Source: Chaetoceros tenuissimus
Lineage: Eukaryota > Bacillariophyta > Thalassiosirophyceae > Chaetocerotales > Chaetocerotaceae
NCBI GenBank assembly: GCA_021927905.1
Contig: BLLK01000055.1
Location: 62,001-126,000 of the forward strand
Length of the DNA stretch: 64,000 nt
Direction of reading: 5' to 3'
Shown: one piece after another, positions 1 through 3,984 of the stretch
How positions within the stretch are numbered: the stretch's first letter is position 1
Layout of the letters: every line of letters starts with the position of its first letter
The notes under the pieces: generated by a model
Database searches by the model: none
Seen by the model: the letters and a program-made list of their open reading frames with translations, nothing else
What the model was told of the DNA's origin: nothing
Translations under genes and position numbers: made by a program

Positions 1-1228
1 TCCAATTTGTTACAAATTTTCCTTCTTCTCTATCAATCTTTTCATTTGGAATCTTAAATGCAACAGTCTCATATGGTTCAGCCGCAATCAAAAGATATTG
101 GTACCTTCTATCTGGTGGTGATTCTTTTCTCTGTTCAAATGCAGACATGAATCTATGACGTGGTTGACAATTAGCGTCAATCTCTGGAAAATGCAATTGG
201 AAACTGAGACATCTTTGATTTGTTTCGTGGTGTCTTGATTTTGAAATTTCATATCCTGGTCTACCAATTTTGACACGTTGCACTGTTTTTGTTGTTGTTT
301 GGACTGGAAGTGAAGGACCAACATCTTGTTTTCCTTGCAATTTTGCTTCCATAGCTGCTCTTCGAGCTAAACCTGCTTGGTGCTTCTTTCCCTGTGTATG
401 AGCAAGGTAGTTTCTGTGTTTTGAAGAATCAATGTTATGTGTTGGTAAATGGAAAAGGGGAACGAAATTTATTGATCAAAGAATGACTCACCCCTCATTT
501 GTATGCAATGTCAAACACAATTTACATTCATATGTCCCCAAATGATTTCTCATTAGGTAAGGGTCTTTTGCTAGATCGACTGTTTCAAGTGCGAGCTGTC
601 TTAATCTTTCCTTTCTTTCTCTTTCCGACTGTTGCTCAGAGCTGACGCCACCGCCACCAAACTTTGAACCGACTCGATTCTGCCTATCAACGCCTCCTCT
701 CATCCTCACACGTAAGGAAATATGATGCACAGTTTCTGGCGAAGGGCTCTCTGAAAACTTTTGTGTAAGATGTTCATACTCATTTCGGCCCAATACCTTC
801 CCGTTTAGAACCACGTATGCCAAATTACTAAAGTTGACCGATGAATTTGAAAAAGAAGTAATACAACTACTGCAATTATAGTTTGATTCAGAATCAAGTT
901 CCCCCGTTCTATTATAGCTCGCTTCTCTTGTGTGTTCATCGCAATTTTGACATGCTCTATTCTCAACATAACGATTCAAGTCTGTTCGCCGACGAACTAG
1001 TCTACCGGCTTCTTGAACCAATTTTCGATGGACACCGATGGTGAGACGGGACATTTGATAGTTCACACTTTGTGCATCATCGAACTCTCTATCTATATGT
1101 GCAGCTCTCTCTAGGAGTGAACGTAAGAAAGTGTCGTAGGATGCTGTTAATGGAATATTTGCTACGGTAGATTTCCCGCGTGGTGTTCGGAATACATAGC
1201 TTATTTGAGAACTGCTTTGAGGATCCAT
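1..1228 (-). CDS. SF3A2: Splicing factor SF3a subunit 2 (SF3a66/Prp11) with N-terminal ubiquitin-like domain, 3' part off the window
   Basis: U2 snRNP subunit needed for branch-site recognition. Exon 1 is 492-1228 and exon 2 is 1-413. The intron at 414-491 has a GTGAGT donor and an ACACAG acceptor and splits the U1-type zinc finger. Residues about 197-246 match SF3A2 closely (RERLRQLALETVD, then KDPY, then YECKLCLTLHTNEG). Exon 2 continues NYLAHTQGKKHQ, supplying the two His, then KIGRPGYE and PRHRFMSAFEQR, all family hallmarks. Unusually, about 179 residues precede the normal SF3A2 start. Residues 10-42 resemble the first strands and helix of ubiquitin (YVFRTPRGKSTV), and 137-179 resemble its end (YVVLNGKVLG, then HHISLRVRMRGG). 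The normal SF3A2 N-terminus begins directly after RGG, at V180. I infer a processed fusion. The C-terminus lies outside the window. Confidence 0.93.
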
Positions 1229-1613: not shown

Positions 1614-3428
1614 CTACTTTAGATTGCCTCTAGCATAGTCACTTTCCTCAAGATGTGTCACGTGTACTACATTATTTCCAAACTGTCTTCCAGACAGTTC
1701 ATTCTTTGCGTTGAATGCATTTTCAACAGTTGCATATTCCAAAAAGATCTTTTTAATAGCAGATGAATTGACCTTATCCTATTGAACCACCAAATTGTGA
1801 GATTCAAATGAGACTCAGGGACAAATGCAGAATCGCATAGATATGTTCGAAAACGTACTTACCTTTGGATGAGGAATTTTCATACTGATTAATTGACCAA
1901 ACTTTTCACATTCCTCTCGAACTTCTTCTTTCAATCCTTCATAGTCTTCTTTAGATGCAAAGTCTTCATCAGTCACCATGTTATGGAGCACCAATATTCT
2001 TGTTTGACGTTCAGTATCGCTTCTTCCATTAGCAGATGGTCCTGGGTTGTTTGAACCATACACAGCTTCAAGCGCAGCATTAGCAATATCCAAAGCATTG
2101 TTTGCAATCTTGCTGGCAGCTTTTGTGCTTCCATTGCCATCATTTTTTCCGAGAGTAGAATTTCCCATTGCAAAATCGACTAATGCCTCTACATCCATCC
2201 CGTCAACATATCTCATGATGGGAGGTGCAACTGAAGATCCAATTCCTCCTGAGGTTGTAGACTCCGACAAGGAACTGTAAGAAGTTGTCACTTGAGCTCC
2301 AGCAATGCCAGCTGAACCGATTTCTGTACCTTCTCCTTCTCTCCTTTCTGAAGCAAGTTTAGCGGTCAACACTTTCCCTCCACCCATCTCCATACCATTT
2401 AACCCTGCAATTGCCATATCTCTGATATGAGTTTCTGTGTATTCCACAAAGCAGTATCCTTTCGAAGTAGTAGCATCAACATCATCCTTGACCAAATGAA
2501 ATGCTTTCAATTTACCAAAAGCACTCAACAATTGCATCACTTGCTCTTCATTCAAATGAACCGGTAAACCACTTATCAAAACTCTATTAGGAGTATCCAA
2601 TACAATATACGACACAATCCCCAACTTCGCTACATCAAATTGATAAATAAAATCTACGTTCAAAGCAGGAGCCCTAGATGGCATATAATCCTTTGGACGT
2701 TTCAGAGTAAGTTTCTGATTTTGGAAAGAGATTCCATTGAGAGCGAGACAGGCAGTACAAACATCCATGTTTTGAAATTCTACAATTGCGAAGGAATCTT
2801 GTACCGAGACTGAAGCGATAGGATCATCTTTAGGTAAGAGAAAGGATGTAATATTCATGGCTGTAAAAATTTGACTTCGCAACCATGACTTCAACTGTTC
2901 TTCAGAAACATTATTTGGTAAATTCCCAATCAAAAGTGTACGTGCATGTTTGGTATCATTAGCCTGTGGAGTAGAAATTATTGACACGAGATTGAATGCA
3001 TTACTGGTGTTCATAGATTCTTGTGCCAATTGACGTTGCTCCGGTTTAAGGAAGACATTTGGATTTGGACCATGAGATGCCAGTGCTGCTTTCTGCAATT
3101 CTTCGAGTGTGATTTGTTCCTCAGTTGGTTCGACGTCAAAAAGGGATGGTCGTTCTCTACGTTTGCGACGACGATCTTGAACCCATGCCAATTCTTCTTC
3201 GTAAGAGTTAAAAATGATGTCATTCTTGCGTCTAGGAGGAGGCCCTCTTCTATCTCTTCGATCATAATTACGTCCGTGGTGATATGGTCTTGAACCTCTG
3301 TACGGAGGTTGGCTATCTCTGTTTCTTCGGTAGGAGTCTCGATCTCTCGATGGTGGTGCTGGCTCTCGGCCATGTTCACCTCTTGTCATCCAAGCAGGCT
3401 CATTAGATATTCCACGTCCCCTTGACAT
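1614..3428 (-). CDS. U2AF2: U2 snRNP auxiliary factor large subunit (U2AF65)
   Basis: Binds the polypyrimidine tract and recruits U2 snRNP. Exons are 1863-3428 and 1614-1778, with an 84-bp intron (GTAAGT donor), giving 576 residues. An Arg-rich N-terminus (about 1-95) is followed by RRM1 at about 163-245 (ARTLLIGNLP), RRM2 at about 281-360 (NRVLISGLP, then KGYCFVEY) and a C-terminal UHM at about 470-570. The intron splits the UHM; its second half, in exon 2, reads KKIFLEYATVENA and SGRQFG. This domain order is diagnostic of U2AF65. The short N-terminal motif that binds the small subunit through a Trp in animals (YWDV) reads SLFDV here (Phe about 97), so that contact may differ. It lies just upstream of SF3A2 on the same strand. 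A linker of about 110 residues rich in Gly/Ser/Asn separates RRM2 from the UHM, longer than in animals. Confidence 0.95.
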
Positions 3429-3984
3429 GATGTTACTCTAATATATCTCGAGTGAGAGTGGGCAATGGTTTTAATGATGATGGTACAACAAAGATATGTT
3501 GTCCAGAGTACAGAGTTTCTTTCACTTTCACCAATTTATCGACTTTCACCAAATGTTATTTTTCATATCCACTTTGGATTAGTGTTTTAATCCTCTTTCT
3601 GTTGGTATTTCATCTGAACTTTCACAGACGGTCTTTTGATGAAAGATGGCTCATTATTCATCTTGTTTTACTGTGACAATCCGATTTTTTATTGCGTTGT
3701 TCCTCCATTTCAATTCAAAGTATGCAACACTGAGTGATAGCAGCCATTTACTATCCATATATCAATTCCAATGAGTCTCTTCGAGCTAGGAATTCCTGCT
3801 ACTAATTTTGAACTTTGAACAGTGAGGTTTAGATTTGTTATTGATTCAACTTTACAAATGGAAAGAATGCTGAAATGGAAAGTCAAATCCATAGACTGCA
3901 TCGAAAAGCGTTGACAAGTTGGATGTATGACTTATAAAGAGTAGAAGAATATACAGAAAGTGTTCATGGAAAGTTGTAAAGCAA
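3429..3984. other. Non-coding stretch upstream of the U2AF gene
   Basis: The stretch holds the U2AF promoter side and AT-rich sequence. Short open frames on both strands show no recognisable protein signature and no consistent splice sites. I see no RNA gene or repeat here. Confidence 0.4.

Follow-up and report, generated by a model that had tools for sequence, protein, structure and literature searches.

A predicted ubiquitin-like precursor of the spliceosomal protein SF3A2 in Chaetoceros tenuissimus and other stramenopiles

Is a core protein of the spliceosome made as the C-terminal part of a ubiquitin-like precursor? The question is raised by a gene of the diatom Chaetoceros tenuissimus, in which a ubiquitin-like domain (Ubl) is joined through a di-glycine to SF3A2, a subunit of the U2 small nuclear ribonucleoprotein (snRNP). 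The gene lies in a 64,000-nucleotide stretch of contig BLLK01000055.1 (positions 62,001 to 126,000, forward strand; assembly GCA_021927905.1), here called the window. Coordinates are window positions, and residue numbers are those of the window protein (database protein P0001, 404 residues). We estimate a probability of roughly 80% that SF3A2 is made as a Ubl precursor and that a deubiquitinase cut after Gly179 yields the splicing-competent protein.

A ubiquitin-like domain ending at the SF3A2 start

The gene is encoded on the minus strand. Exon 1 (492-1228, with the ATG at 1226-1228) codes for residues 1-245 and ends after the second base of codon 246; it is separated by a 78-base GT..AG intron (414-491, GTGAGT...ACACAG) from exon 2, the window part of which (1-413) reaches residue 383. 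The spliced frame within the window is identical to residues 1-383 of P0001, and the contig DNA past the window's left edge (locus L002) adds the final 21 codons and the stop, completing a product of 404 residues. The minus-strand frame 488-1294 contains no stop codon and is continuous across the junction between the Ubl and SF3A2. The exon 1 product has a single matching place in the genome (41.0 Mb, 68 contigs), and its closest named relative among the best 120 of 3273 matches is P0003 of Chaetoceros neogracile, with 74% identity.

The C-terminal part of the protein is SF3A2 (SF3a66/Prp11). Matches to the Pfam profiles SF3A2 (PF16835, 126.2 bits, cut-off 27) and zf-met (PF12874, 29.7 bits, cut-off 21.2) exceed the curated cut-offs, and residues 2-212 of human SF3A2 align with window residues 181-396. 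Because human residue 2 aligns with residue 181, Val180 occupies the position of the human initiator Met1. At the junction, Arg177 (698-700) is followed by Gly178 (695-697) and Gly179 (692-694), which form the di-glycine at 692-697 that precedes the proposed cleavage site. Val180 (GTT, 689-691) would become the new N-terminus, and SF3A2 proper begins with Asp181 (686-688). Its portion in exon 1 (492-688, residues 181-245 and part of codon 246) takes in the beginning of the zinc finger (233-257). Weak matches to DUF7121 and DUF7836, under the cut-off, were treated as noise.

The N-terminal extension (692-1228, residues 1-179) ends in Arg-Gly-Gly and is predicted by AlphaFold to adopt the ubiquitin β-grasp fold (ββ-α-ββ-α-β), interrupted by a disordered insert. 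The first half of the fold (1073-1207, residues 8-52) is composed of strands 8-14 and 20-26 and helix 31-52. The second half (692-838, residues 131-179) is composed of strands 137-141 and 144-146, helix 148-160, strand 168-174, and the C-terminal tail. The mean predicted local distance difference test score (pLDDT) is 84-96 in blocks spanning residues 11-50 and 131-170, and is below 50 for residues 53-128 of the insert between helix α1 and strand β3 (839-1072, residues 53-130). The structural matches in the Protein Data Bank (PDB) belong to the ubiquitin family: a ubiquitin variant, ISG15, and di-ubiquitin. By eye, the aligned extensions of the relatives follow a ubiquitin-like pattern, in which a turn with TPRGKT leads to a helix, a second turn with NGKVL, and an SLRLRLRGG end. 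The Pfam ubiquitin profile PF00240 has no match in the window protein, and a Pfam search with nine single diatom Ubls gave just four matches, all with E-values of 0.06 or worse. The insert carries an arginine run (RLVRRRTD) and two cysteine pairs (CQNC and CSSC); its length is highly variable among relatives, whose whole extensions reach 446 residues.

A first-pass annotation, made from the letters alone, had read this gene as a Ubl fused to SF3A2, with Arg-Gly-Gly exactly at the usual SF3A2 start and Val in place of the initiator Met. The frame, splice site, and junction bear this out, as do the β-grasp model and the ubiquitin-family chains matched in the PDB. The ubiquitin-like ends that it noticed are present, with corrected residue numbers: YVFRTPRGKSTVANIPL spans residues 11-27, YVVLNGKVLG 137-146, and SLRVRMRGG 171-179.

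Conservation and spread of the fusion

The relatives counted here, the best 120 of 3273 matches, include 97 extended proteins, of which 95 have the di-glycine one or two residues before DRQNR. The two extended proteins without it are P0010, which is very near the window protein and has a core of only 66 residues, and P0093, which groups with untagged proteins of Thalassiosira and Cyclotella. We aligned 75 of the 97 extensions; the other 22, among them P0010 and P0093, were omitted as partial, very long, or near-duplicate. In this alignment only Gly143 of the NGK turn, Gly178, and Gly179 are invariant, followed by the start Met (66/67), Gly18 (71/73), and Thr15 (65/70). Because both rows without the di-glycine were left out, its count of 75/75 depends on the choice of rows, and the value for all rows is 95/97.

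The residue after the di-glycine in the 95 proteins is Ile in 59, Met in 19, Val in 10, and Thr in 7. Among the 76 proteins with a residue other than Met, 64 also lack Met at all nine positions preceding the di-glycine, and in 68 the first Met downstream comes at residue 46 when Asp181 is taken as residue 1. With the usual start Met absent and, in most, no other Met nearby, these proteins could hardly give rise to a near-native SF3A2 except from the fusion. Extended forms also occur in transcriptome-derived records of related species: P0004, P0034, and P0052 (mmetsp), and P0024 (MMETSP0580, Dactyliosolen). Dactyliosolen (Coscinodiscophyceae) carries the fusion, as do, by name, the pennates Nitzschia and Cylindrotheca, and the fusion is therefore old within diatoms. 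Another diatom-type Ubl-SF3A2, P0066, comes from a transcriptome record with the truncated name 'Tiarin', read as the ciliate Tiarina, and probably represents prey contamination.

The fusion extends beyond diatoms. A search with a generic junction bait (SLRLRLRGG followed by the SF3A2 start) yielded, among the best 120 of 934 matches, 115 new proteins. Twenty-four of them have a di-glycine junction (22 of non-diatom type and two of diatom type), 14 have other N-terminal additions without the di-glycine, and 77 begin no more than three residues from where SF3A2 usually starts. The bait favors LRLRGG ends and the counts cover the best 120 matches, so they are no gauge of di-glycine conservation outside diatoms, and they are uninformative about absence from alveolates, rhizarians, and haptophytes. 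The named carriers are the oomycetes Albugo laibachii, Lagenidium giganteum, Pythium insidiosum, Saprolegnia diclina, and Thraustotheca clavata, the xanthophytes Heterococcus and Tribonema minus, Phaeothamnion confervicola, and the pelagophyte Chrysophaeum taylorii. The taxonomy of five of these nine was looked up.

Most of the 22 non-diatom extensions are compact, with approximately 75-85 residues; those of P0128, P0135, P0140, and P0153 are shorter, and those of P0123 and P0187 longer. PF00240 exceeds its cut-off in seven of the ten orthologues scanned (P0121, P0124, P0126, P0127, P0129, P0138, and P0140), none of them diatom-type. It falls slightly under the cut-off in P0132 and has no match in the diatom-type P0097 and P0100. 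The Ubl of the metagenomic protein P0140 is still near ubiquitin (52.6 bits), as if this protein resembled something close to the original ubiquitin-SF3A2 fusion. A profile built from 18 of the 22 non-diatom Ubls, which were hand-picked for having the di-glycine, gave scores above 10 bits for 11 of 75 diatom-type extensions (that of the window protein is not one of the 11), versus 0 of 1500 shuffled sequences. A profile-profile comparison of diatom and non-diatom Ubls gave a probability of 95.4% and an E-value of 6e-9 for that one comparison. Judged by these profiles, the diatom extensions are related to the non-diatom Ubls. The precomputed Pfam annotation of the protein collection already pairs PF00240 with PF16835, and the architecture is thus visible to anyone looking.

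Nine compact Ubls were also used as queries for free-standing relatives. None of 1527 candidates (proteins approximately 0.55-1.75 times the query length) matched at E ≤ 10, in a search that required shared five-residue words and so leaves absence unproven. The same shared-word search found no separate Ubl gene in lineages without the tag. Among viral contigs, 27 stretches match a pattern from alignment A1, and none of these encodes a relative.

The gene is the middle one of three consecutive splicing-related genes on the same strand. On one side is a U2AF65-like protein (1815-3437, minus strand; top PDB match U2AF65, E-value 2e-38). On the other side, in locus L002, is an LSM-domain protein (Pfam LSM) with an RGG-rich tail, which we read as LSM4-like.

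Proposed processing and competing explanations

The N-terminus of human SF3A2 extends to the active site of the spliceosome at the 5' splice site, as described in PMC5835773. An uncut tag at this place should be an obstacle, and a folded domain on that end should not fit. We propose that SF3A2 is synthesised as a precursor with an N-terminal Ubl, and that the cut after Gly179 would be made by a deubiquitinase, probably of a kind that acts on ubiquitin precursors too. The products would be the released Ubl and an SF3A2 starting with V180-D181-R182. A free N-terminus, able to thread into the active site next to the 5' splice site within the Bact complex, would exist in the cut form alone, and it is by processing that SF3A2 would become competent for splicing. 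As in known Ubl precursors, the di-glycine sits exactly at the start of the mature partner, which suggests that splicing in carriers depends on removal of the tag. The deubiquitinase, its cut after Gly179, the resulting activation of SF3A2, and any role of the free Ubl on its own are predictions.

Two of the four readable Ubl loci in the same genome (20 were fetched) contain frames read as Ub-L40 and Ub-S27a, and the cell should therefore possess ubiquitin-processing enzymes. Locus L009 (G000:C18:349965-350177) holds a diverged ubiquitin whose RVRLQGG end leads into a lysine-rich segment and further protein; it may be another ubiquitin-type fusion. In L011 (G000:C14:832743-832958), a ubiquitin-like domain within a longer frame has an LRLRGG end, then MYHPTSG.

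Not all records share the fusion. Twenty-three of the 120 relatives are untagged, 19 of which fall into a single clade that holds the proteins of named Thalassiosira and Cyclotella, as are five named oomycete records (Phytophthora ramorum, P. cactorum, Plasmopara halstedii, [Pythium] brassicae, and Pythium oligandrum). The Chaetoceros debilis MMETSP record P0025 begins with MADRQN. The tail varies at ubiquitin position 72 (R 56, P 34, A 6, S 1) and position 74 (R 45, L 36, V 7, C 5, K 2, P 1, I 1) of 97 diatom-type rows, comprising the 95 relatives with the di-glycine together with P0139 and P0168; these rows and the 22 hand-picked non-diatom rows compared with them all have the di-glycine by construction. 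Because of this variation the processing enzyme may be specialised. The first-pass annotation had proposed to look for the extension and its di-glycine in relatives and for transcripts across it. Its reading is supported by 95 of the 120 relatives, the non-diatom stramenopiles, and the extended transcriptome records, all from related species; the untagged proteins and P0025 go against it.

The 19 untagged proteins form one clade together with P0093 (support 100/100), the position of which among the extended diatoms is not settled by the tree. The presence of the tag requires four changes, two of them forced by well-supported branches. Short diatom forms outside this clade are P0025, P0036, P0038, and P0050; like the untagged oomycetes, they may be real losses or gene models starting at a Met kept after the di-glycine. 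A midpoint-rooted tree of 46 rows (45 hand-picked of 235 proteins, plus human) has the Ubl in both oomycetes and ochrophytes and in none of the fungal, human, and Convolutriloba rows. It requires six changes (four forced), has a weak root fork (65/39), and interleaves tagged and untagged oomycetes. We infer one early stramenopile origin, followed by losses or shortened gene models, a single origin that the tree does not prove.

A role in folding or boosting its ribosomal-protein partners is ascribed to ubiquitin, and the Ubl may do only this here, being cut constitutively during translation and regulating nothing. This is a variant of the proposed processing, with odds that overlap those of the latter, and we place it a little short of an even chance. 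Ub-L40 and Ub-S27a in the same genome share the layout, and because untagged lineages exist, the tag is not indispensable. The Ubl has strongly diverged, yet its fold and di-glycine were kept, which hints at specificity; none of this is decisive.

We consider it unlikely that the Ubl is retained uncut as a docking domain of SF3A2, in the manner of the C-terminal UBL of SF3A1, which acts uncut. The domain map of SF3A1 in PMC10943123 includes such a UBL, and the variable tail positions 72 and 74 would fit a domain that is not cleaved. However, if the Ubl were there to dock, nothing would call for a di-glycine exactly at the boundary in 95 of 97 proteins, and in the active site that receives the SF3A2 N-terminus, space for a folded domain should be scarce.

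It is quite improbable that a second start codon near the junction provides the working SF3A2 and that the extended form is a minor isoform. An in-frame ATG does encode Met176 (701-703), three codons upstream of Gly179, and 19 of the 95 relatives with the di-glycine have Met directly after it; P0025, P0036, P0038, and P0050 begin at such a Met. However, the closest relatives have Val or Leu at position 176, and Met is absent there even from P0002 (96% identical); initiation at Met176 was set aside. The 64 proteins without Met at or shortly before the junction have no such start, and the conservation of the di-glycine would be left unexplained. An artefact of gene modeling or assembly can be taken as refuted: other N-terminal additions do occur in 14 of the 115 bait-search proteins, none with a di-glycine at the junction, but the window has one unbroken frame across it, and the same layout recurs in genomes, metagenomes, and transcriptomes of many species.

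We speculate, at clearly less than even odds, that in many stramenopiles the catalytic core of splicing is subject to a checkpoint set by a deubiquitinase: the SF3A2 N-terminus guarding the 5' splice site would come into being only with removal of the Ubl. Uncut SF3A2 would keep the Bact complex from maturing, and feedback on splicing or on the supply of SF3A2 would come from the freed Ubl or from the newly exposed Ile, Val, or Thr, of which Ile is a possible N-degron. In other eukaryotes an N-terminal Ile destabilises proteins, and SF3A2 with such an end could be short-lived unless assembled. Ile is the first residue predicted after the cut in 59 of the 95 relatives with the di-glycine.

Comparison with known ubiquitin-like precursors

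Ub-L40, Ub-S27a, and FUBI-S30 are precursors in which ubiquitin or a Ubl is cut off after a di-glycine. Ubl-SF3A2 shares with them an N-terminal domain joined through a di-glycine to a protein of a ribonucleoprotein, and differs in its spliceosomal partner and in a Ubl that is far from ubiquitin and holds a long disordered insert. The ubiquitin and Ubl precursors that we are able to name feed the ribosome or, in the case of Sde2, a regulator of selected introns.

Sde2 of S. pombe and human is likewise a splicing protein with an N-terminal Ubl and a di-glycine, and removal of its Ubl is required for intron-specific splicing, according to PMC9508853. The same source describes the Sde2 precursor as inactive until Ubp5 or Ubp15 cuts at GG-K, and ubiquitin as able to replace its Ubl. 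In contrast to Sde2, an intron-specific regulator with an N-terminal Lys, the partner here is a core U2 snRNP subunit, and the residue after the di-glycine is Ile, Val, Thr, or Met in 95 of 95 proteins, never Lys. The Sde2 N-terminal ubiquitin profile PF13019 is not among the Pfam matches of the window protein at E-values up to 10, a range in which HMMER filters drop weak matches, and a genome search with it gave no match, nor did its controls. Ubiquitin folds also occur in the spliceosome in the C-terminal UBL of SF3A1 and in UBL5/Hub1, as outlined in PMC10943123. Unlike the Ubl described here, neither is an SF3A2 precursor: the former belongs to a larger protein, and UBL5 is a separate protein that docks on MFAP1. 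Human SF3A2 and the 77 short bait-search proteins start at the Met matching Val180 and have no Ubl.

No description of Ubl-SF3A2 turned up in searches of an open-licence library, and an earlier one may exist elsewhere; as far as its main text goes, the plant SF3a2 paper PMC10049718 does not use the word ubiquitin. Ubl precursors as such are already known. On the sequence evidence, what appears new is a core U2 snRNP protein as the partner, from oomycetes to diatoms: in many species of one large eukaryotic lineage, a constitutive subunit in contact with the 5' splice site is apparently produced as a Ubl fusion. If this is true, each splicing event in the carriers would depend on a prior step of ubiquitin-type proteolysis, and the untagged clade of Thalassiosira and Cyclotella is a natural experiment on the need for a free SF3A2 N-terminus.
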